In this document: piece by piece, positions 6,413 to 60,996 of the stretch
Numbering within the stretch: position 1 is the first letter of the stretch
Layout of the letters: the number at the start of each line of letters is the position of its first letter
NCBI RefSeq assembly: GCF_003966565.1
Contig: NZ_AP018718.1
Span: forward strand, 1,240,001-1,304,000
DNA length: 64,000 nucleotides
Origin: Sulfuricystis multivorans
GTDB taxonomy: Bacteria > Pseudomonadota > Gammaproteobacteria > Burkholderiales > Rhodocyclaceae
Direction of reading: 5' to 3'
Made by a program: the position numbers and the translations under genes
Notes under the pieces: model-generated
What the model saw: the letters and a program-made list of their open reading frames with translations, nothing else
What the model was told of the DNA's origin: nothing
Database searches by the model: none

Positions 6413-9400
6413 TCGTGCGCTCCTTGCAGCCGGGCCACCAGCCGCGCCCAGGCCTCATCGAGTTGGTGATAGCCGCGCGCGGCCGCTTCCCAGTCGATGT
6501 TGTTGCCGGCGGCTTCGAGCGCGGCGAGCAAGGCGGCCAGTTCCTGCGCGCCGATCGCGCGGGCGGAGGACTTGAGCTTGTGGGCGGCGCGGGCGAGATC
6601 GCGCGCCGCGCGTCTTTCGTAGGCCGCGCGAATCTCGGCGAGCGGCGCATCGGCATGGACAAAGAAGCTGTCGATCAGCTCGTGCTGCAACTTTTGTGAA
6701 TCGCCCACCATGTCGGCGAGCACCGCCGGGTCGAACACCGGCGGCGCATCGGGATTGGCCGGCTCCGCCGCCGGCGGGGCGGCAAGCCCCGCGCTGGCTT
6801 CCAGCTCGGCCAGGTCCGCCTCGATCTCGCGCAGCCGCTCGGCGGCTTGGGCGAGGTCATGACGGCGGGCGGCTTCCTCGGCGCGCGCGGCACGCGCGGC
6901 CAGGCGCAGCGCGCCGACCATCTTCGCCGCGCCTTTGATGCGGTGGGCTTCGCGCGTGGCGGCCGCCGCATCGTCACGCGCGAGCGCCGCTTCCAGCTCG
7001 GCGAGATCGCGGCGGGTTTGGTTGACGAAATCGGCGAGGATCAGCCGTTCCTCCTCGGCGCCTTCGGCGAGTTGACCGAGTACCGCGCGGTCGAGCACCA
7101 TGCCAGGATCGATGGGGATGGGCGCGCCGTTGTCGGCGGCGAACGGCAGCCAGCGCGCCAGCACCGTGCGCAGCGTGACCAGTTCTGTGGGCTTCACCAG
7201 CACGTCGTCCATGCCGGCAGCGCGGCAGCGGGCCACTTCTTCGCCCATCGCGGCGGCGGTCCAGGCGATGATCGGTGTCGGTTTGCGGCCTTCCTGGCGC
7301 TCGATCTCACGCACCGCCTGCGCGAGCTCGAACCCGTCCATCACCGGCATGTGCACGTCGGTCACGATCAGGCAGTAGTCGCCGTGTTTCCATTTCGCCA
7401 GCGCCTGGTTGCCGTTCTCGGCCAGTTCCACCGGCAGGCCCAGCAGCGCCAGCTGGCGCGCGATCAGCGCGCGGTTGGTGGGATGGTCGTCGGCCACCAG
7501 CACCGGCCGTCCGCCGCCGTCGAGCTGGCGCAAGGCCACGCTGGCGGTGGCGGGCGGGGGCGGCGCAGTCTCGGCCACCGGGAGGGTCAAGGTGACGAAA
7601 AAGGAGCTGCCGCGCGCCGGTGCCGATTCGACGCCGATCTCGCCGCCCATCAATTCGGCGAGCCGCTTGCAGATCGCCAGCCCCAGGCCGGTGCCGCCAT
7701 AGCGCCGCGCCACGGTGTGGTCGGCCTGGCTGTAGCGCTCGAACAGCTGTTTCTGCACTTCGGGCGCGATGCCGATGCCGGTATCGCGCACCGAGAGCTT
7801 GAGCGTGACCTGGCCGTCCTGCTGGCCCAGCCAGTCGGCGCGCAGCTCGACATAACCTTCGGCGGTGAATTTGAGCGCGTTGGAGACGAAGTTCTGCAGA
7901 ATCTGGCGCACGCGCAGGCCGTCCATCACCAGCGCGCGCGGCAGGCGCGGATCGACGAAACTCATCAGCGAGATGCCCTTGGCGCTGGCCGTGGCCAGAT
8001 GGGCGTCGCGCACGCCATCGATCAGCGCCGGCAGGTCTTCGGGCTCGGGCGAGAGCGTGAGCCGGCCGGCCCCGATCTTCGAGTAGTCGAGGATGTCGTC
8101 GATGATGCGCGAGAGCGCCTTGCCCGATTCGCGCGCGATCGCCAGCTGGTGGCGTTCCTCGTCCGGCAGCGGGGAGAGCGAAAGGAGCTCCAGCATGCCC
8201 AAGAGACCCGTGAGCGGCGTGCGGATCTCGTGGCTCATCGTGGCCAGAAAGTCCTGGCGCTGGACGAGCAGTTCTTCCAATTGGCGGGTGCGCTCGACGA
8301 CGCGCTGCTCCAGCTCGGCGTTGAGCCGGCGCAGGGCTTCCTCGGCTTCCTTCTGTGCGGTGATGTCGCGCACCGTGCCGTGGGCGGCGAGGAATTTGCC
8401 GTTTTCGTCGAAGAGGAGTTCCGCCCGCTCCTCGACCCACTGCGTCACGCCATCGACCACGATGCGATGTTCGATGCAATAGGGCGCACCCTTCAGGGCC
8501 GCCTGCCAGGCGGCATCGACCAGGCCGCGGTCTTCCGGATGCACGCAGGCGAGGAAGCGTGGATAGTCGAGGGGCGTTCCTTCGGGCAAACCGAATATCC
8601 TGAAAGTTTGCGGCGACCAGAAGAGATGGCCGCTGGGGCCATCCAGATGCCAGCTGCCGATCTTGGCGACTGCCTGAGCGCGCAGCAGATCGTCCCGGCT
8701 CATTTGCAAATTCGCTTCGGCACTCTGCCAGCGCAGCAACAGCAACCTGGCCGCGAGAGCGAGCAGCAGCGTGAGCACGACGCCCGCCGCACCCACTGCG
8801 ATGGGGAACCAGCGGTCCTGCACCGCTGGTTCCCAGTTGGGCAGCGCAGTGACCACCAGCGTCCATTCGGCGTCGGCGACCTTGATCGGCAACCGCGCCT
8901 GCAAGGGTAGATGCTGGGCGGCATGGGGCGCATCTTCTTCTGCGTGGGTGTCGAAGACCGGCGGGATCGCGCCGCCGAGCGGCGCCGTTGCCGGCCGGTC
9001 GTAGAGCTCCAGATCCAGCCCGGCATCGCTCGACGCGGCGATGGTCTGGATCAGCCGGTCGGGGCGGAAGATCAGCGCCACGGTGCCGGGAAGGATTTCC
9101 TCGGATTTGCCCGGCAGACGCGCCATCAGCGAGTAGTGCGGCGCTTGCGGGTATTCGTTGGCGAGCCGCTCGCTCAGCGCGAGCTCTGCCCTGGCTTCGA
9201 GCTGGGCGATGGCCTTGCGCCGCGGGCCTGGCAAGAGATCGAGGCCGAGGGCGGCCGGATTGAACGGATAGACATATTCCACCAGCAGGTATTCCGCGCG
9301 TTCGCCGGCCGGCTTGGGCGCAGGCTGGAAAGGCTTCTCGCCCACCTCGGCCAGCGAGGCCGCCACCTGCCGCTGCCAGCCAGGAAGCTCTTGCGCGCGC

Positions 9401-9726
9401 AGATGGCGCGCGTAGCGGTATTCGACCGCCGCCGGAAAGCGCTCGGCGAGGTCGAGGCGAGCGACATAGGCGCGGAAATCGCGCCGGGTCACCTCATCCG
9501 AGGTGACGAACAAGCCGGCCAGACCGCGCAGCGTTTCTTCCTGCAATGCGAACTGCTGCTGCATCCGCGCGGCGAGCTGGCCGGCCTCGTGGCGCAATTC
9601 CTCGTCGAGCGTTTCCTCGACCCAGGCCTGCGCGCGCAGGAACAGCACGACGGTGGCGGCCAGCCCCACGATCAGGACCAGCAGGGGCAAGAAGAGTTGC
9701 TGCTTCAGGAAACGTGCGCTCGCCAT
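6409..9726 (-). CDS. CHASE-PAS hybrid sensor histidine kinase with receiver and two HPt domains
   Basis: An ~1105-residue membrane sensor. Order: N-terminal transmembrane segment, extracellular CHASE domain (LRGLAGLFVTSDEVTRRDF), second membrane segment near residue 320, PAS/PAC domain, HisKA (FLATMSHEIRTPL), HATPase (NALKF, DTGIGI, GGTGLGLAI), receiver (VTDVHMPVMDG, LVKPTE) and two C-terminal HPt domains with EAHRIKGAAK and HKLKSSA. ATG 9726 is preferred to the in-frame ATG 9753 because GAGGG sits ~11 nt before it, whereas GAGG directly abuts the other. Tandem HPt domains could pass phosphate to both coupled regulators downstream. Confidence 0.9.
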   Translation of the reverse strand: MASARFLKQQLFLPLLVLIVGLAATVVLFLRAQAWVEETLDEELRHEAGQLAARMQQQFALQEETLRGLAGLFVTSDEVTRRDFRAYVARLDLAERFPAAVEYRYARHLRAQELPGWQRQVAASLAEVGEKPFQPAPKPAGERAEYLLVEYVYPFNPAALGLDLLPGPRRKAIAQLEARAELALSERLANEYPQAPHYSLMARLPGKSEEILPGTVALIFRPDRLIQTIAASSDAGLDLELYDRPATAPLGGAIPPVFDTHAEEDAPHAAQHLPLQARLPIKVADAEWTLVVTALPNWEPAVQDRWFPIAVGAAGVVLTLLLALAARLLLLRWQSAEANLQMSRDDLLRAQAVAKIGSWHLDGPSGHLFWSPQTFRIFGLPEGTPLDYPRFLACVHPEDRGLVDAAWQAALKGAPYCIEHRIVVDGVTQWVEERAELLFDENGKFLAAHGTVRDITAQKEAEEALRRLNAELEQRVVERTRQLEELLVQRQDFLATMSHEIRTPLTGLLGMLELLSLSPLPDEERHQLAIARESGKALSRIIDDILDYSKIGAGRLTLSPEPEDLPALIDGVRDAHLATASAKGISLMSFVDPRLPRALVMDGLRVRQILQNFVSNALKFTAEGYVELRADWLGQQDGQVTLKLSVRDTGIGIAPEVQKQLFERYSQADHTVARRYGGTGLGLAICKRLAELMGGEIGVESAPARGSSFFVTLTLPVAETAPPPPATASVALRQLDGGGRPVLVADDHPTNRALIARQLALLGLPVELAENGNQALAKWKHGDYCLIVTDVHMPVMDGFELAQAVREIERQEGRKPTPIIAWTAAAMGEEVARCRAAGMDDVLVKPTELVTLRTVLARWLPFAADNGAPIPIDPGMVLDRAVLGQLAEGAEEERLILADFVNQTRRDLAELEAALARDDAAAATREAHRIKGAAKMVGALRLAARAARAEEAARRHDLAQAAERLREIEADLAELEASAGLAAPPAAEPANPDAPPVFDPAVLADMVGDSQKLQHELIDSFFVHADAPLAEIRAAYERRAARDLARAAHKLKSSARAIGAQELAALLAALEAAGNNIDWEAAARGYHQLDEAWARLVARLQGAHE

Positions 9727-9779
9727 GACATGTGAAACCCTCGACGAAACCATCCTCTATGGTTGTGTATGAGCCGGGA

Positions 9780-11300
9780 CTATAGCTCATAGCCGCGCTC
9801 CATGAACAGGCGCAAACAGGCTTCGACCACGGCCGGATCAAAGAAGCGGCCCTTGTTCCGGGTCACCTCCTGCAAGGCCGGGAACACGCCGAAGCCCGGA
9901 CGGTAAGGGCGGTGCGTGGCCATCGCTTCGACGACGTCGGCCACCGCGAGGATGCGTGCTTCGAGGAGGATCTCCTCGCCCTTCAGACCGCGCGGGTAGC
10001 CCGAGCCGTCCAGCCGCTCGTGGTGCTGATGGACGATCTCCGCCACCGGCCAGGGAAAGTCGATGACCTTGAGGATTTCCCAGCCCGACAGCGGATGGGT
10101 GCGGATGATCGCGAATTCGGCGTCCGACAGCTTGGCCGGACTGGCCAGTATCTCGGCCGGCACGCGCACCTTGCCGATATCGTGCACGATGCCGGCCATG
10201 CGCAGCCCATCCACCTGCTCCCCGGGCAATCCCATCTCGGTGGCAATGGCTGCCGCCAGCTGGGCCACGCGGCGCTGATGGCCGGCGGTGTAAGGGTCGC
10301 GCATTTCCACCGTGGCGGCGATCGCGGCGACCGCATGGTCGAGGCTGTGGTCGAGCTTTTCCAGGATGCCCAGGCGCTCGGCGCGACCGCGCAGATTGGT
10401 GATGCCGTAGGCGAGATCGCCGACCAGCTCCGTCAGCAGGTCTATGACGTCCTCGGCAAAGCAATCGGCCCGTTCGCTGCCGACCCAGAGCACACCCAGC
10501 CGATCGCCGTTCGCGGCGAACGGCAGCGCGGCGGAAGCCGCGACCCCCAGTCGCGTCATGGTTTCGATGAGGAGCGGATCGTTCTCGTCCTCCAGCCGCC
10601 GGAGGTCGGGACGACCCTGACCGAGGATGTCCCGTTCGATCGACTCCGCGCGCTGTGCGCCCACTTCGGCGACGAGGCGCGCTTCTTCCACGTTCAGTCC
10701 CGCCCAGCCGGCCGGCACCACGTGTCCGGCGCGCGGGCCGAGCATTGCGCAGGCAGACTTGAATTCGCCGTGCTCGACCAGCACGCGGCACATCTCGCCG
10801 GAAAGCGCCAGCTCGTCCTCGGCGCGCACCAGCACCTGGTTGCAGCGGCTGATGGTGCGGTAGAGGCGCTGGATGCGTGCCACATGGTCTTCGGCCTGCC
10901 GTTGCGCGGTGATGTCGCGCAACACATGCAGCGAATACTGCGCAGTGCCTTGCGCGTCGCGCAGCTCGAAGCCGCGCGAGAGAAAGCGGCGTTCTCCGGC
11001 GGTGAATTCCTCGCTGCTTTCGGGACGTCCGCCTTCGTGCGTCGCGCGACAACCGGGCAGGGGCCCGTCGCCACGCGGAAAAACCTCCCAGTAGAACTTG
11101 CCGACGGCCTCCGCCGGCGTCATCCCCGCCGCCTTGAAATAGGCGTGGTTGGCGAACCGCACCCGGTAATCGGGGTCATGCAAGAAGATCGGATCCTCGA
11201 TCGCATCACACATCCTGTGCCAGATGTCGGGACTCATGGGGATGCCTTCCAGAGGGCCGGCAAGGGCGGGTTGGTTTTCTTGTTGGCTAGCTGAGGACAT
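9780..11300 (-). CDS. PAS-GAF-HD-GYP cyclic-di-GMP phosphodiesterase
   Basis: A ~506-residue protein: PAS domain (about 25-130), GAF domain (about 165-310), then HD-GYP (about 330-500) with MAGIVHDIGKVRVP, HPLSGWEIL, HQHHERLDGSGYPRGL and ARILAVADVVEA. All metal ligands and the HHExxDGSGYP signature are present, so c-di-GMP hydrolysis is likely. A longer in-frame ORF extends antisense to clpB; the ATG at 11300, preceded by GAGAGG, is the supported start. It lies directly upstream of the hybrid-kinase operon and may act in the same circuit. No membrane segment is seen. Confidence 0.92.
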   Translation of the reverse strand: MSSASQQENQPALAGPLEGIPMSPDIWHRMCDAIEDPIFLHDPDYRVRFANHAYFKAAGMTPAEAVGKFYWEVFPRGDGPLPGCRATHEGGRPESSEEFTAGERRFLSRGFELRDAQGTAQYSLHVLRDITAQRQAEDHVARIQRLYRTISRCNQVLVRAEDELALSGEMCRVLVEHGEFKSACAMLGPRAGHVVPAGWAGLNVEEARLVAEVGAQRAESIERDILGQGRPDLRRLEDENDPLLIETMTRLGVAASAALPFAANGDRLGVLWVGSERADCFAEDVIDLLTELVGDLAYGITNLRGRAERLGILEKLDHSLDHAVAAIAATVEMRDPYTAGHQRRVAQLAAAIATEMGLPGEQVDGLRMAGIVHDIGKVRVPAEILASPAKLSDAEFAIIRTHPLSGWEILKVIDFPWPVAEIVHQHHERLDGSGYPRGLKGEEILLEARILAVADVVEAMATHRPYRPGFGVFPALQEVTRNKGRFFDPAVVEACLRLFMERGYEL

Positions 11301-51243: not shown

Positions 51244-51288
51244 GTAAAGTAATATCTACCGCTGAGGCAGCGAATGCAATCCTGCTGT

Positions 51289-51777
51289 TCATTTCAGTAT
51301 CTTTACTTCGAAACCACAGGTCGCGTCGCCCAAGCCGCCGATACAGGACGTTTCGCGCGCCTGCACTTTGACTTGCAAAATCGAACCGATCGCGCCGGCG
51401 ATCAAGCCACCTTCAAAGGAACAAAGGGGTCTGCCGACAGGAGTCATTCCCGCGCAAGTGATGCATTCATGCACATCGACCTTGAATCCCTCATTCAGCT
51501 TTTCGACACTGATCTCGCCAAGTTTCAGCTGCCGGCAGAGATCGAGAAACTGCTCGACGCTTTGCAAGCCCAGTTGCCCGCCGAGCTTCTTGCCCGCCAG
51601 ATAGGCTTGCGCCGCCGCGGCCGGGCCAAAAAGGTCTTCGAGCACCACGAGTCGCAGCAGGCGGAATACCGCGATCGGAGCGTCCGTGCCCAATTTCGGC
51701 CGGTCGATGCGTAGCGCGTTGGCGACGTCGACGGCTGCGAATGGCGATTTCTGCAAGTTGTTCATGCTTTGGGACAT
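51289..51777 (-). CDS. V4R-domain protein
   Basis: A ~162-residue protein whose C-terminal half is a 4-vinyl-reductase (V4R) domain: ECITCAGMTPVG, then CSFEGGLIAGAIG and SCIGGLGDATCGFEV, with its cysteines and Gly-Ala pattern. V4R domains bind small hydrophobic ligands and occur in bacteriochlorophyll synthesis, XylR/DmpR sensors and Trs33-like proteins. Possible starts are 51777 and 51765; an AAAGGA lies upstream of both. It is the last gene of the eight-gene run and probably a sensor module. Confidence 0.78.
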   Translation of the reverse strand: MSQSMNNLQKSPFAAVDVANALRIDRPKLGTDAPIAVFRLLRLVVLEDLFGPAAAAQAYLAGKKLGGQLGLQSVEQFLDLCRQLKLGEISVEKLNEGFKVDVHECITCAGMTPVGRPLCSFEGGLIAGAIGSILQVKVQARETSCIGGLGDATCGFEVKILK

Positions 51778-51794
51778 TCCTTTGCTTGGTCGAT

Positions 51795-52529
51795 TCAATC
51801 GATCATTGCGGCGAGTGCGTCGAGATCGCTTTCATGGGCGGGCTCGAAACCGGAGAAATGCAGATCGGCGAGGATCCGGCTGCCCTGCGGATGGCCGTGC
51901 ATGCTGCAGAGCAATTCTTGCAGCGGCTGGAATTTGTCCCGCCATTCCGGTGCCAGACAAAAGCAGTGATAAGCGCGTCGACTCTGGGATTCGGCGATGA
52001 GGCGCAAGCTTTGACGCGTCGAATCCGCCATCCCCTGCCAAGTTTCGTTATATACGAAAGCCAGATCGGCCTTGCCCTGGATCGCCGCCTGCGCTGCGGC
52101 AAGATGGTTGCCGGTGAAGACGAATTCGCAATCGCTGCGGAGAATGCCCTGACTGTCGAGCAATTCGAGGCCCAGGATGTGCACGATCAGTTTGTCGGTC
52201 GCCGAGGCGATCTTCAGCGGCCTGCGTTGAAGATCGGCGCCGGACGCCGACCCGACCAGAAAGGTTTCGTCAAAGAACCCGACCGGCCGGGCAACCGGAA
52301 TGAAGTTTTTTTCCCTGCGAAAGATCGCCGCGCTGAACGGGTTGGCATAGACGAGCCGATATGGACCTGCCAGAACCGCTGCCCTTTCCTGGAGGAAATT
52401 GTCCTTTGGTTCGAAGTGCAGACGGCAGCCGAGGTGACGCTGGATATAGGAGTTGAGGGTATACCAACCGACCAGATTCTTGGCTGTGTCGTGCGGGCAG
52501 ACGGAAAACAACTCTGAGGCGAATTTCAT
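51795..52529 (-). CDS. PhnD-like ligand-binding protein without signal peptide (second)
   Basis: A 244-residue type II periplasmic-binding-protein fold of the PhnD/SsuA family: FASELFSVCPHDTAKNLVGW at the N-terminus, then YRLVYANPFSAAIF, KADLAFVYNETWQGM. No signal peptide is visible, so it should stay in the cytoplasm. It is similar in layout to the neighbouring paralogue. PhnD-type proteins bind phosphonates or phosphate, but the ligand here is unknown. Confidence 0.75.
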   Translation of the reverse strand: MKFASELFSVCPHDTAKNLVGWYTLNSYIQRHLGCRLHFEPKDNFLQERAAVLAGPYRLVYANPFSAAIFRREKNFIPVARPVGFFDETFLVGSASGADLQRRPLKIASATDKLIVHILGLELLDSQGILRSDCEFVFTGNHLAAAQAAIQGKADLAFVYNETWQGMADSTRQSLRLIAESQSRRAYHCFCLAPEWRDKFQPLQELLCSMHGHPQGSRILADLHFSGFEPAHESDLDALAAMID

Positions 52530-52557
52530 GTGTCTCTCTGTTGTGTCTGGATTGTCG

Positions 52558-53298
52558 TCAATCGATCAGCGTGTCCATCAGGTCGACCATGAATTCCGCT
52601 TCTTCGCCATCGGTAGCCTGCCAGCCAGTGATGCCGATCTCTTTCAGCAAGCAGGGTTCGGTGTCGTTCATGGCCAGCAGCGCCTGCCTGATCTCGACGA
52701 CTTGGTCTGTCAAGCGTGGCCCGGCCAGGAACAGATGATGGATGACGTGTATCTGGCTTTTCAAGATCACGCGCAGCCGGTTGCGGATCGTCGGCGAGAG
52801 TTCGGCAAAGGTTTCGGCGAGGAAGAATCCGGCATCGGCCTTGCCATTCATCAGGGCCTTGGCGACCAACACATAATTCTCGCAGCGCTGGTATTGGATG
52901 TCGGCCGGCGTGATGTCGGCTGGTTCCAGCAGGATCTGGCCGATCATGTTGATTTCCGGATCATCGGTGGCGGCAACACGCAAGTCCGGGTGGAAATCCT
53001 CGATGCGGGTTACTGGACTGTCGGCGGGCACGGCGATGATGGTTTCGTCGGGCCGCATCCTCGGATGCACGACCGGCACGAACTGTTTCTCACGCAGGAG
53101 CATTGCCCCGTCGGCCGGGTTGGCGTAGATCAGGTCGATCTTGCCCGCGTCGATCGCGGCATGACAGGCAGGGAAATCGGTGAACAGCTCGAGATGGATC
53201 GGCAGTCCGAGCCGTTTTTGCAGCCAGGTGTTGAAGACGAACCAGCCGGCCAGATACTTGGTGTTGAAATCTGGGCTCAGCGTGAGGGTGTATTTCAT
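52558..53298 (-). CDS. PhnD-like ligand-binding protein without signal peptide (first)
   Basis: A 246-residue paralogue of the downstream protein: KYTLTLSPDFNTKYLAGW, IDLIYANPADGAMLLREK, DADAGF-like KADAGFFLAE. It lacks a signal peptide. GGGGAG lies seven bases before the ATG, and its start overlaps the PAS gene by ATGA. The pair likely senses a cytoplasmic small anion or acts as protein-interaction modules in the GTPase operon. Confidence 0.75.
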   Translation of the reverse strand: MKYTLTLSPDFNTKYLAGWFVFNTWLQKRLGLPIHLELFTDFPACHAAIDAGKIDLIYANPADGAMLLREKQFVPVVHPRMRPDETIIAVPADSPVTRIEDFHPDLRVAATDDPEINMIGQILLEPADITPADIQYQRCENYVLVAKALMNGKADAGFFLAETFAELSPTIRNRLRVILKSQIHVIHHLFLAGPRLTDQVVEIRQALLAMNDTEPCLLKEIGITGWQATDGEEAEFMVDLMDTLID

Positions 53299-53795
53299 TG
53301 GCGTCTCCCCTGCTCTTCCTGCAGCAAGCTCTTGTAGAGGGCGGCCATTTCCTCGATCTTGCGGCGTGAAGGTTTGCGGCGTACGGAGGTATAGCTGACG
53401 ATGCGACCCTCCCGGATATTGGGCACGACGGTGGCGTAAACCCAATAGAACGCCCCATCCTTGCGCAGATTTTTCACATAGCCGTGCCACTTTTTCCCTT
53501 GGGTGATCGTATCCCACAATCCTTTGAACGCCACCGCGGGCATATTGGGATGGCGCAGGATGTAATGCTGCTCCCCTACCAGTTCATCTTCGCTATAACC
53601 GGACATGTCGACGAAGGCCTGGTTGGCGTGGGTAATCACGCCAGATGGATCGGTACGCGAAACGATCAATTTACCCTCTGGAAAGGGCACTTCACGTTGC
53701 GTGACGAACACCCGCCGCCGGAAGCCGTCGTAATAGGTGAGCCAATGCTCCTCGCCGCTTTCGCCGTGGAGATCGGCAAGCGTCATGTCGCGCAT
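53295..53795 (-). CDS. Aer-like PAS-domain protein
   Basis: A 166-residue single PAS domain (about 35-145) resembling the FAD-binding PAS of the aerotaxis receptor Aer: ITHANQAFVDMSGYSEDELVG, HNI-type LRHPNMPAVAF and KNLRKDGAFYWVYATV. It has no membrane segment, HAMP or kinase domain. The C-terminal helix (RRKIEEMAALYKSLLQE) could dimerise or dock on a partner. A redox or energy signal is inferred from the Aer resemblance. ATG 53786 is an alternative start. Confidence 0.82.
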   Translation of the reverse strand: MRDMTLADLHGESGEEHWLTYYDGFRRRVFVTQREVPFPEGKLIVSRTDPSGVITHANQAFVDMSGYSEDELVGEQHYILRHPNMPAVAFKGLWDTITQGKKWHGYVKNLRKDGAFYWVYATVVPNIREGRIVSYTSVRRKPSRRKIEEMAALYKSLLQEEQGRRQ

Positions 53796-53807
53796 GGTCT
53801 GGCGACC

Positions 53808-54170
53808 TCACAGCAGTTTGCTGACGCTTTCGGCTGCACGTTTGGCATCGAGGAAAATCAGGCCGAGCTTGGCGCCGGGGCGCGCTACCACCGACAGCAC
53901 GGCATCCTCGCCGGCATGAATCATCAGGATGTAGCCCTCCTTGCCCTTGACCATCACCTGTTCGAGCGCGCCACAGCCCAGTTCGCTCGCGCTGCGATCG
54001 CCGAGCGTCAGCATCGCCGCGTTCATCGCCCCGACGCGATCTTCATCGAGGTTGGCTGGCAACAGGCTGGCGATCATCAGGCCGTCGGTCGAAACGACCG
54101 CTGAACCGATGATATCGGCCGAACTGCCGTTCAAATCGCTCAGCACGGCACGCAACATTTCTTCACGCAT
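53808..54170 (-). CDS. Roadblock/LC7-domain protein (MglB-like)
   Basis: A 120-residue roadblock fold: ISAAV-type DIIGSAVVSTDGLMIAS, GAMNAAMLTLGDRSASELG, GYILMIHAGEDAVLSVVAR, as in MglB, the GTPase-activating partner of the polarity GTPase MglA. Strong ribosome site AAGGAG before the ATG. Its operon neighbour encodes a Ras-like GTPase fused to a kinase, so a GAP or scaffold role for that GTPase is a reasonable inference. Confidence 0.87.
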   Translation of the reverse strand: MREEMLRAVLSDLNGSSADIIGSAVVSTDGLMIASLLPANLDEDRVGAMNAAMLTLGDRSASELGCGALEQVMVKGKEGYILMIHAGEDAVLSVVARPGAKLGLIFLDAKRAAESVSKLL

Positions 54171-54186
54171 GTGAAAGTCTCCTTGT

Positions 54187-54840
54187 CTATGTGGATACGA
54201 AATCGAGTGCGGCGTATCGGCGCGACAGCCACCATACCAGATCGACGAACGCCGGACGGTCGAATGCCGGTGTGCCGGCGATCGATAGTACGAACTTCTG
54301 GCTGCCAACGATGAGTGGCCAGAAACCGAGCTGGCCATTACCGGCGGCATCGACTGCCGCCCAACCGCCTGGCGGAAGCCGCAAGTTTCTGTCGAGCAGG
54401 CCGCTATTGCGAGCCTGCAATGAAGCGATGGAGGCAGCCAATGCCGCCAATTCCTCGACGACCTCGTGGGCGAAGCCGACATTGGCGAGATAAAAACCCT
54501 GCGCGTCGGCGAGCAAGGCTTTACCGGCACCCGACAGTTCAGCGAGCAGGCGGGGAACATCTTGTTCCATGTTGAGATCCGGAGCCTCGCGACGGTCTTT
54601 GCTGCCGGCCAGCCAGCCGAGTTCCTGCAGGCGATAGAGAAGCTCGACGAAATCGGCTTCGCTGCTGCCGCCAGCGAGCTCCGCCAGAGTGGCCTGATCC
54701 AACGAAGGTGTCTCAGGCATCGAGAGCAAGCGTCCAAGCAGTGCTCGGACGGCATCATCCTGATTGCCGACGACGGCGCGATAGGCGCCCGACGGCGTGA
54801 CGTTCACATAAACCCCAGAGTTGAGGGTGTAATCAGGCAT
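54187..54840 (-). CDS. Unknown protein of the GTPase-roadblock operon
   Basis: A 217-residue soluble protein. An N-terminal part (1-105) with helical SLDQATLAELAGGSSEADF is followed by a C-terminal part (about 110-215) whose QGFYLANVGFAHEVVEELAALAA segment and strand pattern look like a second roadblock-type fold. I do not recognise a named family. The ATG at 54840 is chosen; an in-frame start at 54861 is possible. It sits between the kinase-GTPase and roadblock genes. Confidence 0.6.
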   Translation of the reverse strand: MPDYTLNSGVYVNVTPSGAYRAVVGNQDDAVRALLGRLLSMPETPSLDQATLAELAGGSSEADFVELLYRLQELGWLAGSKDRREAPDLNMEQDVPRLLAELSGAGKALLADAQGFYLANVGFAHEVVEELAALAASIASLQARNSGLLDRNLRLPPGGWAAVDAAGNGQLGFWPLIVGSQKFVLSIAGTPAFDRPAFVDLVWWLSRRYAALDFVST

Positions 54841-54935
54841 GATCGATCCAATCTTCAGCAATGGATAATCTTAATACTATCGTCATGATGGCACGGATGC
54901 CAATTTCGGTTGCGCGAAAAAGCGCGAGTCGTCGG

Positions 54936-56435
54936 TCACAATTCGTAATCCTGCACGCCAGGGTCGATCGTCACCAGCAGCGCCTGGATCAGCATGACCA
55001 CATCGGCTTTGTTGCGGGCATCGATTTCGAACACCGGCGGTTTGATCTTGGATGCACGTGCCTCGTCGAGCAGGAAGCGGTAATAGCTTTCCAGGTCGTG
55101 AGGTTGATCGAACGCCATGAAATTGACGCCGATGACGATTTTCGTCGCTGAACCCATGGCATCGTCACACCACTTCAGATAAAACGCCAGATCGTCAAGC
55201 GGCGAAGGACGCGAGTTGTCGATCAGGATCACCAGCCCCAAGACGCCCTTTTTGAGGATGTCCCACATGAAATCGAAGCGCTCCTGCCCCGGTGCGCCAT
55301 ACAGATGGACCCGCTCGTTTGGTCCGATGTTCATGATGCCGTAGTCGAATGCGACGGTGGTCTTCTCCTTTCTCGATCGGGTCATGTCCGAGGCGGTCTG
55401 ATCGGTGCCGACCACAGGCACATCGCTCAAGGCGCCGATGGCAGTCGTCTTCCCGGCACCGACCGGCCCAATGAACAGGATCTTGTGGTTGCGCACGTGC
55501 TGGCGTGGCACATATGGCACGATGGTCGCAGTCATCGACCGAGCGGCTTCGCCACTTTCAAGCTGGGCGAGAACCGCACCGACACTCGCTGGCCGTTGCT
55601 CCGGGCGCAGCCCCAGCAGGCTGTCGATGATTTCCAGAAAGCCAGATGAATATCGGCCTGCCGCGATTTTCGCCAAGGGTGCCATGGGATCCGGCATCCC
55701 CTGCTCTACTGCCAGCAAGCGGGTTTTCGCATCCACGGGTCGTTTGCCGGTGATGCAGCGCCGTAAGGTTGCCCCCAAGGCATAGAGATCCGACCATGGC
55801 CCCTGCACTCCACCTTCTTCATATTGTTCGAGCGGCGCATAACCAGGAGTCAATGCGCAGTAACCGTAGTTCGTGGCCGCCCCGAACTCGAGTTTCGCCG
55901 CACCGAAATCGATCAGTAACGGCACCCCGTCGTGACGGATATAAATATTGCTGGGCTTGATGTCGCGGTGCAGATATTTTTGCGCATGGATGGCACGCAA
56001 TCCTTCCAGCAAGGGTACGAAAATGCCCCGCAGCCAGGTTTCATCGAAGCCCTCTTGCCGGCTGCGAGCAACCATTGCCAGCGTCGTTCCTTCCTCGTAA
56101 TCCATCACGAAATATGCCGTGCCATGCGCATTGAAGTAACGCGAAATGCGCACGATGTTCGGATGCTTGAGACGGGCGAGGATGCGTGCCTCGCTGACGA
56201 AGGTCTCGAGGCCGAAGCGGTAAAGCTCATCGTCTGCCGCCGACTTGAGCGTGACGCGTTCGCCTTTGCGTATCGCCAGGTCAGCCGGAAAATATTCTTT
56301 GATCGCCACCGGGATGTTCAGGTGCGTGTCCCAACCTCGGTAAGTGATGCCGAAAGCACCGATACCCAGCACGCCGTCGATACGATATTCGTGCAACAGC
56401 GTGCCGGGCGGCAAGGCATGGGTGGCTTGGCTCAT
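54936..56435 (-). CDS. Ser/Thr protein kinase fused to Ras/MglA-like small GTPase
   Basis: A 499-residue fusion. The kinase (about 15-295) is complete: GIGAFGITYRG, VAIK (K46), Glu 82, HRDIKPSN (156-163), DFG (176-178) and APLEQY. A short linker leads to a GTPase domain (about 315-490): GPVGAGKTT (G1, 323-331), YGAPGQERFDF in place of DxxG (G3), a divergent G4 (GVNFMAFD, 436-443) and EIDARNK (G5-like). It is soluble. It overlaps the upstream pseudo-receiver gene by ATGA. Kinase activity is well supported; GTP specificity is less sure because G4 is altered. Confidence 0.85.
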   Translation of the reverse strand: MSQATHALPPGTLLHEYRIDGVLGIGAFGITYRGWDTHLNIPVAIKEYFPADLAIRKGERVTLKSAADDELYRFGLETFVSEARILARLKHPNIVRISRYFNAHGTAYFVMDYEEGTTLAMVARSRQEGFDETWLRGIFVPLLEGLRAIHAQKYLHRDIKPSNIYIRHDGVPLLIDFGAAKLEFGAATNYGYCALTPGYAPLEQYEEGGVQGPWSDLYALGATLRRCITGKRPVDAKTRLLAVEQGMPDPMAPLAKIAAGRYSSGFLEIIDSLLGLRPEQRPASVGAVLAQLESGEAARSMTATIVPYVPRQHVRNHKILFIGPVGAGKTTAIGALSDVPVVGTDQTASDMTRSRKEKTTVAFDYGIMNIGPNERVHLYGAPGQERFDFMWDILKKGVLGLVILIDNSRPSPLDDLAFYLKWCDDAMGSATKIVIGVNFMAFDQPHDLESYYRFLLDEARASKIKPPVFEIDARNKADVVMLIQALLVTIDPGVQDYEL

Positions 56436-57643
56436 CGCGTCATCAGCCCTTTCAGATAGTGCATGATGCGGCCGAGGAATTGACGTTCGCCGTGCTCCGG
56501 CGGCGCTGGGGGCGGCTCGATCAGGTGGTCGGCGGCGCGTTTGGCGATATCGAGCAGACCAATCGTGTGGGCGCAGGCGCAAAAGGCAAAGACATGACGC
56601 TGCGGAATCTGCAGAGCCTCGGCAACCCGGCTCATGCTCATCGGTTGCTCGTTCAACAGGGCGGCGATGCGCATCGCATCCGGCAGCTCCAAGAGACGGG
56701 TGAGATTGGGCCAATGTCGCAGATAGACACGCACATTCGGCGGCAGATCGACCGGCAACCGGCCACGATAGGTCCAGGCCGCCACCTTCCAGAGCAGGAC
56801 GTCTGGATGGACGGCCATCGGCCCAGGCGCGGAGGCGCTATCGGCAGGTAGTTTCTCTAAGAACAGCATCCCACCGGGAAATGCTGCTTGGCTCATGCGC
56901 TGGAGAGAGGCATCACCGACTGGCACGGCCACTGCCCGCCCCCGTGGATGAAAGATCGCAAGCGTGTTTTCTTTGTATCTGAGAGCGACCGGTTGCTTGC
57001 CCTGCTTCGCTTCTGCGAGCGCTGTCTGTAGCGCTGCGAGCAAACGACCTTCGAGCGGCAAGAACAGTTTGCTTACCTGTGCATCGTCGTTGCAATCGAT
57101 ATCTTCGACCGTACCACATACCGCTGAAAGATCCTTCCCGGGAGGAGTTGCGGGCGATTCGCTTGTCTCAGGTTCCCTTTGATGCAGGCGCAAGGTAGGG
57201 ATTCTTTGTGTCTTCTCCTCATTTTCCGTTTCCGCCGCCAGCCCCGAAGAGGGAGCGACTTGAGGCGCAGGAATCGAGGCTGCCAAGGGCAGCGGTGGGG
57301 TTTTCTGCGTATCCGGCTCGATCTGTTCGGCCAGCCGCCGAATGGTTTCGATCAGCTGCTCGACCCTGATTGGCTTTGCAATCGTTGCTGCGACGCCCTC
57401 CAGCTCGATGCCCGCGGCAGAAATGGCGATGGCGGGACAGCGGGGGCGTTTTTCATGGAACGCCTGCCAGGCTTCCTGAGCACCGACGCCATCGGCATCG
57501 ACGATCACCAAGTCGGCCCTGCCACCATCGGCCAAGCGGGCCACGGCCTTCGCAGGTCCGGCAAAGGCCATCGCAAAGGTATTGCGCATCCGCTCATTGA
57601 CACCCAACAGATCGACCGCCAATGGTAGCGTCTTACGTTTCAT
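56432..57643 (-). CDS. Pseudo-receiver protein heading the kinase-GTPase operon
   Basis: A 403-residue protein. Residues 1-105 look like a receiver with VIVDADG and AKPIR but without the acidic pair near the start, so phosphorylation is doubtful. A Pro/Ser/Thr-rich linker (about 110-180) follows, then a domain (about 190-290) containing GKQPVALRYKENTLAIFHPRG, and a C-terminal helical part (about 320-400) with LPDAMRIAALLNEQPMSMSRV resembling a winged helix. I do not recognise the full architecture. Its last bases overlap the kinase start. Confidence 0.65.
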   Translation of the reverse strand: MKRKTLPLAVDLLGVNERMRNTFAMAFAGPAKAVARLADGGRADLVIVDADGVGAQEAWQAFHEKRPRCPAIAISAAGIELEGVAATIAKPIRVEQLIETIRRLAEQIEPDTQKTPPLPLAASIPAPQVAPSSGLAAETENEEKTQRIPTLRLHQREPETSESPATPPGKDLSAVCGTVEDIDCNDDAQVSKLFLPLEGRLLAALQTALAEAKQGKQPVALRYKENTLAIFHPRGRAVAVPVGDASLQRMSQAAFPGGMLFLEKLPADSASAPGPMAVHPDVLLWKVAAWTYRGRLPVDLPPNVRVYLRHWPNLTRLLELPDAMRIAALLNEQPMSMSRVAEALQIPQRHVFAFCACAHTIGLLDIAKRAADHLIEPPPAPPEHGERQFLGRIMHYLKGLMTR

Positions 57644-57804
57644 GCTGGCTTGGTAGTCCCGAATAACTCAGCTCTGCCTGCGACGGCCTTCGTGACGCGA
57701 TCGGCAGCCAAACTTCGCGGTGCAAGCCGCGCTGATTGCCTCCCCGCCCGCGAGGGGGGCTTAAGGGTGGGCGGGTGTTTGTTCTTGCGCATGGGGGTTT
57801 TCAT
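57640..57804 (-). CDS. Possible small basic ORF coupled to the pseudo-receiver gene
   Basis: A 54-codon frame (starting KTPMRKNKHPPTLK) whose TGA overlaps the next gene's ATG as ATGA. It is Arg/Lys-rich. Much of it consists of the 59-bp repeat and a Gly/Pro-rich segment, and no good ribosome site is seen, so it may be chance. Listed because of the coupling. Confidence 0.2.
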   Translation of the reverse strand: MKTPMRKNKHPPTLKPPSRAGRQSARLAPRSLAADRVTKAVAGRAELFGTTKPA

Positions 57805-57823
57805 CTTCTGCGGGTGGGCGTGG
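57765..57823 (-). repeat. 59-bp repeat, copy 2
   Basis: The reverse complement matches 26770-26828 at 49 of 59 positions, including ATGCGCAAGAACAAAC. It lies between the 227-aa gene and the pseudo-receiver gene, i.e. in the likely promoter region of the kinase-GTPase operon. Confidence 0.6.
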
Positions 57824-57835
57824 CGATCATGCGCG

Positions 57836-58519
57836 TTAGCGAGAAACATCGGAGGCTTCCCAGAGGGGGCGCACGGCTTCCGGCACTGGTTCGATCCGTT
57901 TTCTCATGGCCGTCTTTGCCGAGTGATCGCGTGAGCGTCGGTAGATGTCCAGCAGAAGACGCGTCGCCTCGACGTCGCTCGGATTGGCTGGCAGATGTTT
58001 TTCGAGCAAAGAGCGCGCTTCATCGACTTGGCCGGCCTCCAAATGATCCAGCGCCTCGACCAACAATGTGGAATTCCCAGCTTCGGGACGACTCGAGGAA
58101 GTTCCTCGATTGGCCAGACGAATCACGATGGCTGGGGGATGAGGCTGGGACGCTTCAGCAAAATGTCCCAGGCGCTCCAAGCTCTGGGTGTCGAGCAGCG
58201 GGGAACACAAAGTGAGCAGGTGGGTGCGCAAGCCTGCTCCCCTGTTTTCCAACACGCGGAATAGATCATGCAAGGCTTCCGCGGTAACTTTTTTTTGCCG
58301 GTACGCGCGGGCGAGCAATATGCGCCGGACGTGGGCAAGCAGATCGGCGGGCTGCCGCGCGATCCGGTGTTTGAGGAAGTCGAGATAACGTTCGGCATGT
58401 TCCGCTGACGGCAACACCGGGCAAAGCTTGCCGTGACAATCGAAAAAAGCGGGCTGCCAATCATCCAACGGCGGAACGAACGGTTCGGAAACGGGCTCAA
58501 GGACCAACAACTCGTTCAT
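57836..58519 (-). CDS. Hypothetical protein with C-terminal TPR/FimV-like segment
   Basis: A 227-residue soluble protein. The C-terminal third (LLVEALDHLEAGQVDEARSL through DIYRRSRDH) has a helix-turn-helix repeat like tetratricopeptide or FimV C-terminal modules. The N-terminal part is rich in Leu/Pro without a recognised motif; ERYLDFLKHRIARQP may form a helix. It lies just upstream of the kinase-GTPase run in the same direction and could belong to it, though ~190 bp intervene. Confidence 0.55.
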   Translation of the reverse strand: MNELLVLEPVSEPFVPPLDDWQPAFFDCHGKLCPVLPSAEHAERYLDFLKHRIARQPADLLAHVRRILLARAYRQKKVTAEALHDLFRVLENRGAGLRTHLLTLCSPLLDTQSLERLGHFAEASQPHPPAIVIRLANRGTSSSRPEAGNSTLLVEALDHLEAGQVDEARSLLEKHLPANPSDVEATRLLLDIYRRSRDHSAKTAMRKRIEPVPEAVRPLWEASDVSR

Positions 58520-58565: not shown

Positions 58566-59210
58566 TCAGCGCGCCCCGGCGCGTCGTAAAAAGTCGACGA
58601 TCTCGGCGTGATTCGCCTTGCGGGCCATGTCGAGTGCGGTGCCTTCGTCGCGATCGATCTCGTTGACCTCGGCGCCGGCGCCGACGAGCAGACGCACCAT
58701 TTCCAGATGACCGCGTTTGGCCGCCAGCATCAATGCGGTGGACCCATTCGGCGCGATGGCATTCACCTGTGCGCCGGCAGCCAGCAGTAATGCGGCGATT
58801 TGCGGGCGATTCTCGAAGGCGGCGTAATGCAGCGCCGTCCAGCCCGGCGTGTTCGGATCGGCCTTGCGGTCGAGCAGCAACCTGGCGACCGCCTCATGGC
58901 CGCGCAGCGTGGCCAGCATCAATGCGGTGTCACCATAACGGTTGCGGCGGTTGAGATTGGCGCGGTTGTCGAGCAGAAAACGCACCAGTTCAAGATTGTT
59001 TTCGCGGGCGGCGATCATCAGCAGCGTGTTGCCCTGGGCATCGGTGGTATTGACATCCATGCCGCGCCGCAACAGGTCGATGACCTGTTCGGTTTCATTT
59101 TGCTCGGCCGCGTGCAGGATGTCTTCATACACCCCGGCGACGGCGTGAATGGCAAGCAAGGCATACAAGAGTGACAGGACCAAGTATTTTTTCATCGGCT
59201 GTGCTTTCAT
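58566..59210 (-). CDS. Secreted ankyrin-repeat protein
   Basis: A 214-residue protein with a signal peptide (LVLSLLYALLAIHAVA) and about five ankyrin repeats, e.g. GNTLLMIAARENNLELVRFL, GDTALMLATLRGHEAVARLL, GWTALHYAAFENRPQIAALL. It probably works by protein binding in the periplasm. The start ATG overlaps the tatD stop (ATGA), so it is the last gene of the mltG-tmk-holB-tatD operon. Ankyrin proteins follow tatD in several betaproteobacteria. Confidence 0.88.
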   Translation of the reverse strand: MKAQPMKKYLVLSLLYALLAIHAVAGVYEDILHAAEQNETEQVIDLLRRGMDVNTTDAQGNTLLMIAARENNLELVRFLLDNRANLNRRNRYGDTALMLATLRGHEAVARLLLDRKADPNTPGWTALHYAAFENRPQIAALLLAAGAQVNAIAPNGSTALMLAAKRGHLEMVRLLVGAGAEVNEIDRDEGTALDMARKANHAEIVDFLRRAGAR

Positions 59211-59989
59211 CGTTTGGCGTGGCTGAAAAGCCGGAAGAAGTTCTCGGTCGTCTGCTCGGCGACCGCATCGAGCGTCAAGCCACGTAAGCGGGCGATCTCT
59301 TCGGCGACATGACGCACATAGGCGGGCTGATTCACCTTGCCGCGGTAGGGCACTGGCGCGAGATAAGGAGCATCGGTTTCGACGAGCATGCGTTCGAGCG
59401 GCACCATTTTTGCGACTTCCTTGAGTTCGATGGCATTTTTGAAGGTGACGATACCCGAGAACGAAATGTAGAACCCCAGATCGAGCGCAGTGCGAGCAAT
59501 CTGTGCGCTTTCGGTGAAGCAATGGAAGACACCGCCGACCGCCTCCGCCCCCTCCTCTTTCAAGATGGCCAGAGTATCGGCCGCGGCCGAGCGGGTGTGA
59601 ATGATCAGCGGCTTGCTGCAGAGCCGGGCAGCGCGAATGTGAGTGCGAAAACGCTCGCGTTGCCACTCCAGATCACCCTCGAGGCGATAATAATCGAGGC
59701 CGGTTTCGCCAATGGCCACGACTCTTGGATCATTGGCCAGTTCAAGCAAAGTCTTGGCATCGGGGTCTCTTTCAGAATATTCCGTATCCGGGTGCACACC
59801 GACTGCGGCGAAGAGGTTGGATGCCGAGCGGACGAGCGCCAGCATCGCCGGGAAACGCTCCAAGGTGACGCCAGCGCACAGTGCCCAGCCAACGTCGGCC
59901 TGCGCCATGGCGGCTAGAAGATCGTGGAGATTTTCCGCAAGCTCAGGGAAATCGAGATGGCAATGGGAGTCGACGAGTGGCGCGTTCAT
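59207..59989 (-). CDS. TatD-family metal-dependent hydrolase (YcfH-like)
   Basis: A 260-residue TIM-barrel: LVDSHCHLDFPEL (metal His pair), GETGLDYYR (Glu), IIHTRSA, HCFTES and ETDAPYLAPVPYRGK (Asp). The family includes DNases and D-aminoacyl-tRNA deacylases; cellular role is not certain. Start ATG 59989 gives the family N-terminus. It overlaps holB by 4 nt. Confidence 0.93.
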   Translation of the reverse strand: MNAPLVDSHCHLDFPELAENLHDLLAAMAQADVGWALCAGVTLERFPAMLALVRSASNLFAAVGVHPDTEYSERDPDAKTLLELANDPRVVAIGETGLDYYRLEGDLEWQRERFRTHIRAARLCSKPLIIHTRSAAADTLAILKEEGAEAVGGVFHCFTESAQIARTALDLGFYISFSGIVTFKNAIELKEVAKMVPLERMLVETDAPYLAPVPYRGKVNQPAYVRHVAEEIARLRGLTLDAVAEQTTENFFRLFSHAKR

Positions 59990-60996
59990 GATTCGAGGGG
60001 CTTGAATGCGCGCAGGCAAAGGTCTTCGAGAAAAAGTCGCGGATTGAGCGGGTGATTTGCCCAGGCGCGCAATTGGGCTATTTGCCGTTGGGCGCGGATC
60101 AACGCAGGCAGGGTGGTTCTCTGAGCGAGTGGCGCAAGCGCATCGCGGTCGAAATAGCGAGGTGCATGACCGACCCGGCACAAGCCAAGGTCGTGGAGCC
60201 ACTTTTGCACGGTCACGACCAGATCCTCGATGCCGAGCCCCGCATCATCTTTAACGAGCCCTTCCCAGCGCGCCGCGAGCGCGAGCGGTTCAGAAGGCCG
60301 CAGCAAATCGCTCACCAGCTTTTCCAGAGCCTTCAGACGGCCGCTGCGGGCGGCATCGAAAAGCTGGCGTGGAGCCTGGCCGAAAAATGGCAGCCACTTC
60401 GCCTCGCCAGCAAGTTTTTGCTCTTCCAGCCAACGTCGGCTTTGCTCGATGGGCGGAGGGGCGAAAACGACGCGTCGAGAACGGCTCAAGAGCGTCGGCA
60501 AGAGGCTGCGCCATCTGTTGGAAATCATTATGAAATAGAAAGATGTCGATGGTTCTTCAAGTATCTTGAGAAGAGAGTTGGCAACGATTGGGTTCATCGC
60601 TTCGGCCGGGTCGATCAGGCAGACCCGCGCTCCGCCGCGATGGCCGCCAACGTGGAAGAAGTCTTCCAGCTCACGGATCTGCTGGATGCGGATCTGGCGA
60701 CCGGTCTTTTTCTTTTCTCCTTCGCTATGCTTTGCGTCCTCCTCGGCCGCACTTTCAGCCTCGGGCTGGACGAGCCGAAAATCGGGATGCTGGCCATTGG
60801 CCATCATCGAACAGGACGGGCAGCGGCCGCAAGCGGGCTCATGGGGGCCGCGCGGTATCTCGCAGAGCAGACGGGCCGCCAACGCATCCGCCAACTCCCG
60901 CTTCCCGACTCCGACCGGACCAGTGAACAGCAGCGCATGGGGCAGGCGCACATCGGGCCCAGTCAGGCTCTTCCATATATCTTCATTTAGTATCAT
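59986..60996 (-). CDS. holB: DNA polymerase III subunit delta'
   Basis: A 336-residue clamp-loader subunit. GPVGVGKRELADAL (Walker A-like), a zinc-binding ACGRCPSC and LKILEEPSTSFYF are visible. It sits between tmk and tatD, the conserved order in proteobacteria. Residues 85-105 are an acidic, Lys-rich insert (AEEDAKHSEGEKKKTG) probably a flexible loop. Confidence 0.93.
   Translation of the reverse strand: MILNEDIWKSLTGPDVRLPHALLFTGPVGVGKRELADALAARLLCEIPRGPHEPACGRCPSCSMMANGQHPDFRLVQPEAESAAEEDAKHSEGEKKKTGRQIRIQQIRELEDFFHVGGHRGGARVCLIDPAEAMNPIVANSLLKILEEPSTSFYFIMISNRWRSLLPTLLSRSRRVVFAPPPIEQSRRWLEEQKLAGEAKWLPFFGQAPRQLFDAARSGRLKALEKLVSDLLRPSEPLALAARWEGLVKDDAGLGIEDLVVTVQKWLHDLGLCRVGHAPRYFDRDALAPLAQRTTLPALIRAQRQIAQLRAWANHPLNPRLFLEDLCLRAFKPLES

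Follow-up and report, generated by a model that had tools for sequence, protein, structure and literature searches.

Switches in which a small Ras-like GTPase of the MglA type is paired with MglB-type roadblock proteins have been described in several bacteria. The Group 3 MglA systems of the beta- and gammaproteobacteria, sorted by sequence in 2014, combine MglA with a receiver-like/winged-helix protein and with one or two MglB proteins (Wuichet and Sogaard-Andersen, PMC4316618), and the mglA gene of Snodgrassella communis is classed with them (PMC11112851). The Group 1 switch of Myxococcus xanthus has MglA, the roadblock paralogues MglB and MglC, the receiver protein RomR and the TPR protein SgmX (PMC7519303, PMC9481161, PMC7949163), which is bound by MglA-GTP to promote pili (PMC7519303), and the operons of the actinobacterial conservons (Group 2) bring together genes for a kinase-type protein, an MglB-type protein and a GTPase (PMC13343842). 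Here we describe a minus-strand locus within a window of 64,000 nucleotides of the Sulfuricystis multivorans genome (contig NZ_AP018718.1, positions 1,240,001 to 1,304,000) that encodes a core of the Group 3 type together with soluble sensor proteins, a TPR protein and a Ser/Thr kinase fused to the GTPase. In our judgement the balance stands about even that we have here a variant of the Group 3 MglA/MglB switch that is equipped with sensors and works in the manner proposed below.

Organization and conservation of the locus

The original prediction, made from the sequence alone, placed eight same-strand genes at 51289–57643, and eight minus-strand genes (g1–g8) do fill this interval, with Pfam supporting most of their parts. 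The junctions are tight, with gaps of −4, 95, 16, 12, −4, 28 and −4 nt; of the several ATGA junctions that had been claimed, those at g1/g2 and g5/g6 are true overlaps, and the one at g7/g8 (−4) is present only if g8 starts at TTG 51798 rather than at the alternative ATG 51777. The eight genes are not the full unit, and a further gene that lay outside those coordinates had been overlooked. This gene, g0 (57836–58519, minus strand), encodes a TPR protein of 227 aa, is separated from g1 by 192 nt (57644–57835) and is the first gene of the conserved module; we propose it as a candidate effector. Its Pfam TPR matches are all below the cut-off (2e-4 and weaker), and it scores 170 bits (4e-54, one-sequence search) with a profile of 35 TPR neighbours from other loci that was built without the window.

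A total of 143 loci were screened from four sources: 20 taken from the 39 match rows of a scan of the order, the best 80 of 589 confirmed relatives (named loci), 5 fusion candidates, and 38 from a scan of the class for MglB2, in which the 10 weakest of 52 rows were excluded. Core loci, defined as having both roadblock genes and a receiver (REC) or TPR gene, number 78, and 71 after dropping 7 near-identical ones; these 71 include the locus of a congener (L032) and exclude the window. Because loci were picked for their resemblance to the GTPase or the MglB2 of the window, the counts over these core loci are not unbiased frequencies. REC is present in 70 of the 71 core loci, the GTPase in 68 and the TPR gene in 66, and the latter count, with the profile match, indicates that g0 belongs to the conserved unit. 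The order TPR-REC-MglA-MglB1-MglB2 recurs, and is found in tens of loci from many beta- and gammaproteobacterial families. Strains that have the complete module include Methylotuvimicrobium buryatense 5G, Methylomonas and Sphaerotilus natans. The original prediction had named conservation of the neighbourhood in related genomes as its own check, and this is what we see. The idea that unrelated genes were grouped by chance, which nothing favours for g0–g6 and which only g8, matched in this genus alone, would fit, is ruled out by this conserved order, and we give it practically no weight.

The switch core

The first four genes of the window's interval, g1–g4, correspond in sequence and order to the Group 3 MglA system (PMC4316618), a core that was thus already described in 2014, although the parts had been thought to match no pathway known by name. 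Gene g1 (56432–57643) encodes a receiver-like N-terminus, a linker and a C-terminal region. Its AlphaFold2 model has a mean pLDDT of 83.5, the best Foldseek matches are receiver domains (top VanR, 8e-5), and in the family alignment Asp49 is present in 28 of 34 rows and Lys90 in 30 of 34. One output of the system could lie here: the GTPase switch would control g1 as a receiver/winged-helix protein and hence gene regulation, with pili not a direct target. Gene regulation was suggested for Group 3 from a receiver-like N-terminus and a winged-helix C-terminus recognized by Phyre2 (PMC4316618), and the near-universal presence of REC in the core loci agrees with it. However, the g1 Foldseek matches listed cover about 113–132 columns, the size of a receiver, so that the winged helix is unconfirmed; the strand-1 acidic pair is absent from the g1 receiver; and the TPR gene is nearly as conserved as REC. 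Transcription through g1, although we consider it unlikely, is a serious rival to the sensor-equipped switch.

Gene g2 (54936–56435) is a single open frame of 499 aa, in which a Ser/Thr kinase domain (55587–56387; motifs VAIK, HRDIKPSN and DFG; Pfam Pkinase 1.5e-33) is fused to an MglA-type GTPase domain (54936–55496; GPVGAGKTT, TTVAFDYG, YGAPGQ and IDAR; Pfam ATP_bind_1 2.7e-8). Group 3 is recognized by a GTPGQ-type G3 motif, a G2 Thr and a G5 DAR, and by one or two MglB genes lying no more than four genes away from MglA (PMC4316618); g2 has TTVA, YGAPGQ (Ala for Thr) and IDAR, and is followed by the two roadblock genes g3 and g4. With its kinase it exceeds the 150–240 aa size filter given in that paper and is therefore a variant of Group 3 rather than a plain member, although Table 1 of the same paper lists longer sequences in the MglA subclade. 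The GTPase half shares 50% identity with the Snodgrassella gandavensis GTPase (L073), in whose locus the genes are in the order TPR, REC, GTPase and two roadblock genes. A Myxococcus-type Group 1 switch, although it shares a GTPase, two roadblock paralogues, a receiver protein and a TPR effector, is ruled out by YGAPGQ and TTVA in place of TVPGQ and an Arg beside the G2 Thr. The window also differs from M. xanthus in its one compact locus, and in encoding sensors alongside the switch where M. xanthus uses the Frz chemosensory system.

The product of g3 (54187–54840 from ATG 54840, or from TTG 54861) was originally listed as an unknown protein. Its Pfam Robl_LC7 match is below the cut-off (E=0.0015), but its AlphaFold2 model (mean pLDDT 93) gives 31 Foldseek matches at E≤0.001, all 31 of them roadblock-fold chains with M. 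xanthus MglB leading, and the modelled fold makes g3 the second roadblock protein of the locus, MglB1, which is diverged and carries an N-terminal domain. Gene g4 (53808–54170; Pfam Robl_LC7 9e-14 with the longer frame) encodes the roadblock protein MglB2, which has the Asp-Gly pair reported for MglB of Groups 2–5 (PMC4316618), reading TDG, whereas the matching stretch of g3 reads ADAQG. From this difference the roles of g3 and g4 may differ, by analogy with MglB and MglC in Myxococcus. The original view of an MglA/MglB-type cytoplasmic module is upheld, and the module is conserved.

Variation on this core was seen elsewhere. On another branch, a conserved protein of about 80 aa is encoded between two MglB2-type genes (L100:8771-9013 and L103:8584-8877), and a Pfam scan of the L100 copy gave no match. 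Outside the proteobacteria, to go by the title of the record, kinase-like, protoglobin-like, MglB2-type and MglA-type GTPase genes are clustered in a Prosthecobacter metagenome-assembled genome (L113), and in another genome (G614, locus L212) a copy of the module has stops and runs of unknown letters, and is either decaying or poorly assembled.

Soluble sensors beside MglB2

To the 3′ side of MglB2 in the window are four genes for soluble proteins. The first, g5 (53295–53795), encodes a stand-alone PAS protein of 166 aa (Pfam PAS 3e-15). The profile of its family, with a mean column identity of 64% among 17 sequences, has as best solved structure 8dik (Aer, 3e-45), followed by Aer 31cj and 3ewk, and g5 is an Aer-type PAS that, to judge from the family, is likely to bind FAD and sense redox state. 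It differs from the Aer chemoreceptor in that PAS is its sole domain and no hydrophobic stretch is present, so that both membrane anchor and MCP signalling domain are lacking. We note that the window's PAS has the loop RHPNMP, whereas of 34 locus copies 32 read RHPDMP and the remaining ones have Glu and Ala; the congener (L032) keeps the Asp, which makes the Asn a change at the level of the species in a loop that is conserved elsewhere.

Genes g6 (52558–53298; PhnD1) and g7 (51795–52529) encode two PhnD-like proteins (Pfam Phosphonate-bd, 6e-39 and 2e-31). As had been claimed, neither has a signal peptide: hydropathy shows no hydrophobic N-terminus in either, which sets them apart from the periplasmic PhnD and PtxB transport binding proteins, and PhnD1 proteins lack a signal peptide in 17 of 18 rows, the exception (L084) possibly having a misplaced start. 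The nearest solved relatives of PhnD1, all weak, are PtxB, a phosphonate-binding protein and ArrX. At the Ser-rich stretch of PtxB the PhnD1 profile carries DPDVN-like residues, a pattern present in 26 of 36 PhnD1 frames scanned and without a match in the other 10. Phosphonate uptake is unlikely given these replaced residues, the lack of signal peptides and the absence of transporter genes from the listed neighbourhood of g6 and g7, and phosphonate is accordingly not assumed as the ligand. The last gene, g8 (51289–51798), encodes a V4R protein (Pfam V4R 4e-12; nearest solved structure MJ1460, 2osd, 7e-4) that was matched only in the window and in the congener. Redox and small-molecule inputs, as originally predicted, are likely.

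In 41 of the 71 core loci MglB2 has one or more sensor genes on its own strand no further than 2.5 kb away, the kinds being PhnD-like (32), PAS (27), protoglobin (11), FIST (2), V4R (2) and CZB (1); because locus proteins served as queries for protoglobin, CZB and FIST, the loci that supplied them match themselves. The V4R count is made up of the congener and a look-alike in L052 (gene 8246-8719), which is V4R-like by eye only, with no phmmer match to g8 and none in Pfam. Of the 11 core loci with a protoglobin gene, 8 have it between their roadblock genes and the other 3 have it 3′ of MglB2, and Pfam confirms the single copy tested (L057, 1.3e-25). CZB genes adjoin MglB2 in L090, L114, L186 and L192 (Pfam supporting L090), FIST genes are 3′ of MglB2 in two kinase-fusion loci (L162, L163), and an MCP-signal protein is 3′ of MglB2 in L203. 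Chemoreceptors are well known to contain PAS, protoglobin and CZB domains, which are encoded here as separate soluble proteins. By analogy, the globin-roadblock fusion HGbRL of Methylacidiphilum (PMC4476040) is an independent precedent for pairing a sensory domain directly with a roadblock domain, although it is one fusion protein in one genus, whereas loci of the window's type have separate genes, several kinds of sensor and a full GTPase locus.

The linkage of sensors to MglB2 is tight. MglB2 (g4 as query) is found in 46 of 369 genomes of the class at E≤1e-20 and PhnD1 in 19 of the 369 at E≤1e-15, and all 19 are among the 46 (p=1.4e-19, hypergeometric, a value that ignores the relatedness of the genomes). 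Of 21 PhnD matches, 17 are within about 3 kb of MglB2. Thirty-four loci, 27 of them non-redundant, have all three of MglB2, PAS and PhnD1, and in 30 of these PAS is encoded no more than 220 nt from MglB2 on the same strand. In L061 and L065 the distance is 690 and 935 nt with a protoglobin gene in between, and in L088, L095 and L096 the MglB2-PAS-PhnD1 block is intact but ahead of the TPR gene. These figures bear on the proposal that MglA, MglB and the TPR protein simply place type IV pili at the pole, with PAS, PhnD and V4R as operon passengers. Thirty of the 71 core loci have no recognized sensor nearby, so that the core can work without one; but passengers would hardly account for a PhnD family found only in MglB2 genomes or for the close spacing of PAS, and we regard this proposal as very unlikely.

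The kinase-GTPase fusion

The locus had been thought to be built on its kinase-GTPase fusion. The whole of g2, used as query, has matches at E≤1e-20 in 184 of the 369 genomes of the class, many via kinase or GTPase alone, and matches across both halves are present in five (the window's own genome, G307, G638, G511 and G432). The congener (G111) also has a full-length relative of g2; a sequencing error is ruled out, since the congener and four other class genomes share the fusion. A receiver gene adjoins the fusion in all six, and both roadblock genes and TPR accompany it in all but G432, where, in the stretch examined (L165, fusion at 8862-10310), REC adjoins and no TPR or roadblock match is found. 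Only 4 of the 71 core loci have the fusion, a count that omits two candidates, L202 (kinase 1e-6, GTPase 2e-15) and L169 (cut by a contig edge), which may be further cases. The kinase fusion is an uncommon add-on and not the foundation of the system.

The window, G111, G638 and G307 form one group in the GTPase tree (support 91/90; the branch is not starred) and G511 is apart, which suggests that the fusion arose once or twice. Nested inside the fused group on a long branch are GTPase paralogues that are free of a kinase, from the window's genome and from G111; that of the window's genome (L034:8536-9063; G000:C1:2525541-2526047), MglA-like and 56% identical, has no recognizable module nearby. 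Compared with the conservons, in which CvnA is a histidine kinase-like membrane protein accompanied by CvnC (PMC13343842), the window has a Ser/Thr kinase fused to the GTPase itself, and Pfam gave no match to a CvnA-type histidine kinase or CvnC among ten window proteins scanned.

Coupling of GTPase and kinase is known from Roco/LRRK2 proteins, and on that model the kinase could itself be the output, with nucleotide state and MglB switching it via the GTPase and Ser/Thr phosphorylation carrying the signal. The recurrence of the fusion in the congener and four more class genomes, and the catalytic motifs of the window protein, speak for this. The searched kinase motifs are present in the other fusions as well, with the one exception of G511, which reads HLDIKP for HRDIKP, and the GTPase half of G432 has neither the P-loop nor the G3 pattern. 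With so few core loci fused, a kinase output would be the logic of the fused branch at most and not general, and we think it quite improbable as an account of the system.

Proposed mechanism and output

The conserved switch set of the sensor-equipped Group 3 system, as the sequences show, is the TPR protein, the receiver-like protein, the MglA-type GTPase and MglB1, and the input set is MglB2 with soluble sensors, here the Aer-type PAS, two PhnD-like proteins and V4R. We propose that redox state (through PAS-FAD) and a cytosolic ligand (through the PhnD-like proteins) alter the action of MglB1 and MglB2 on the GTPase, which would set the level of MglA-GTP. MglA-GTP would act via the TPR protein, as MglA does via SgmX in Myxococcus, to influence type IV pilus activity or placement; the parallel between g0 and SgmX would be one of role and not of demonstrated homology. 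The receiver-like protein may be a RomR-like scaffold or a transcriptional branch. In this genus the active-looking kinase on the GTPase would couple nucleotide state and phosphorylation in one protein, adding or reading phosphorylation.

Among the plausible outputs is a polarity switch. By an eye count, 45 of the 46 MglB2 genomes carry PilT, the sole miss (G639) having a weak MglB2 match, against 264 of the 323 others (p=0.0026); for the strong MglB2 matches the count is 40 of 40 genomes (p=0.001). This co-occurrence is weakly consistent with type IV pili as the target. In Snodgrassella, mutation of an orphan mglB, not of the operon copy, changed colony spreading, and transposon data indicate that all three mglB genes are beneficial for gut colonization (PMC11112851).

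Several observations weigh against the sensor-equipped switch as proposed, in addition to the core loci without a recognized sensor. First, the pilus link is weak, as PilT is found in 309 of the 369 genomes anyway and the genomes are related, and PMC4316618 favours transcription as the Group 3 output. Secondly, sensors and switch do not always coincide: four PhnD matches are away from MglB2 (two in G470, single ones in G325 and G577), and inspection of these genes (L208–L211) gave no clear clue to output, although one (L211) adjoins a weak roadblock match (E=7e-6); L064 has its PAS-PhnD1 pair after REC and 1.8 kb away from MglB2, and L122 has MglB2 on the opposite strand. Thirdly, L178, L199 and L200 have TPR, REC, both roadblock genes and sensors with no GTPase in the stretch, and are left unexplained by a GTPase-centred model. 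Finally, the GTPase was found at E≤1e-5 in 30 of 300 genomes sampled from the order, and none of the seven further members of the window's family in the sample has it at that threshold, so that the system is patchy there, by loss or transfer.

Flanking features

A promoter may sit in the 192-nt gap between g0 and g1 (57644–57835, minus strand), and a single transcript of g0 and g1–g8 is therefore only putative; a promoter scan found no promoter-like site in the gap, the scan itself being not clearly above shuffles. A weak terminator-like stem with a T run is located 3′ of g8 (51256–51270, minus strand; stem/T-run scan), and terminator-like sites in the region, 11 against 7.9 (sd 3.3) in shuffles, are not above chance. 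The pilZ gene is often between holB and tatD in pilus-bearing relatives; in the window (59207–60996) holB and tatD are directly adjacent, with no space for it.

Implications for Group 3 systems

The candidate for an undescribed system in the original prediction is reduced, as the core was known, to what surrounds it. The sensors, the TPR partner gene and the kinase fusion around the Group 3 core seem undescribed and recur in other bacteria. Relative to the Group 3 operons, including the mgl operon of Snodgrassella (PMC11112851), which share the REC-like protein, a GTPase with Group 2–5 style motifs, two MglB proteins and the gene order, the window has a GTPase fused to a kinase, adds PAS, two PhnD and V4R proteins, and has a TPR gene counted in the unit. 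The main text of PMC4316618 (supplements excluded) names no kinase domain, TPR, PAS, phosphonate or globin, and the openly accessible literature searched gave no description of sensors, a TPR gene or a kinase fusion in Group 3 operons.

The conserved sensors around the Group 3 core offer candidate inputs, namely redox (Aer-type PAS), a gas or redox cue (protoglobin) and a cytosolic ligand (PhnD-like). A candidate effector is offered by the TPR gene, which is likewise conserved. More tentatively, and with some doubt, we suggest a widespread class in which soluble chemoreceptor-type sensors (Aer-PAS, protoglobin, CZB) and other cytosolic ligand-binding proteins (PhnD-like, FIST, V4R) plug into a roadblock/Ras-like GTPase switch that replaces CheA or a histidine kinase, with a Ser/Thr kinase fused on in some lineages. 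If so, exchangeable sensor proteins would couple cytosolic metabolism to a Ras-like switch in bacteria, and the kinase-GTPase fusion would be a compact natural link of two kinds of switch better known from eukaryotes. Two-component systems and chemotaxis arrays would then be joined by a third general way of linking surface behaviour to the redox or metabolite state of the cytosol.

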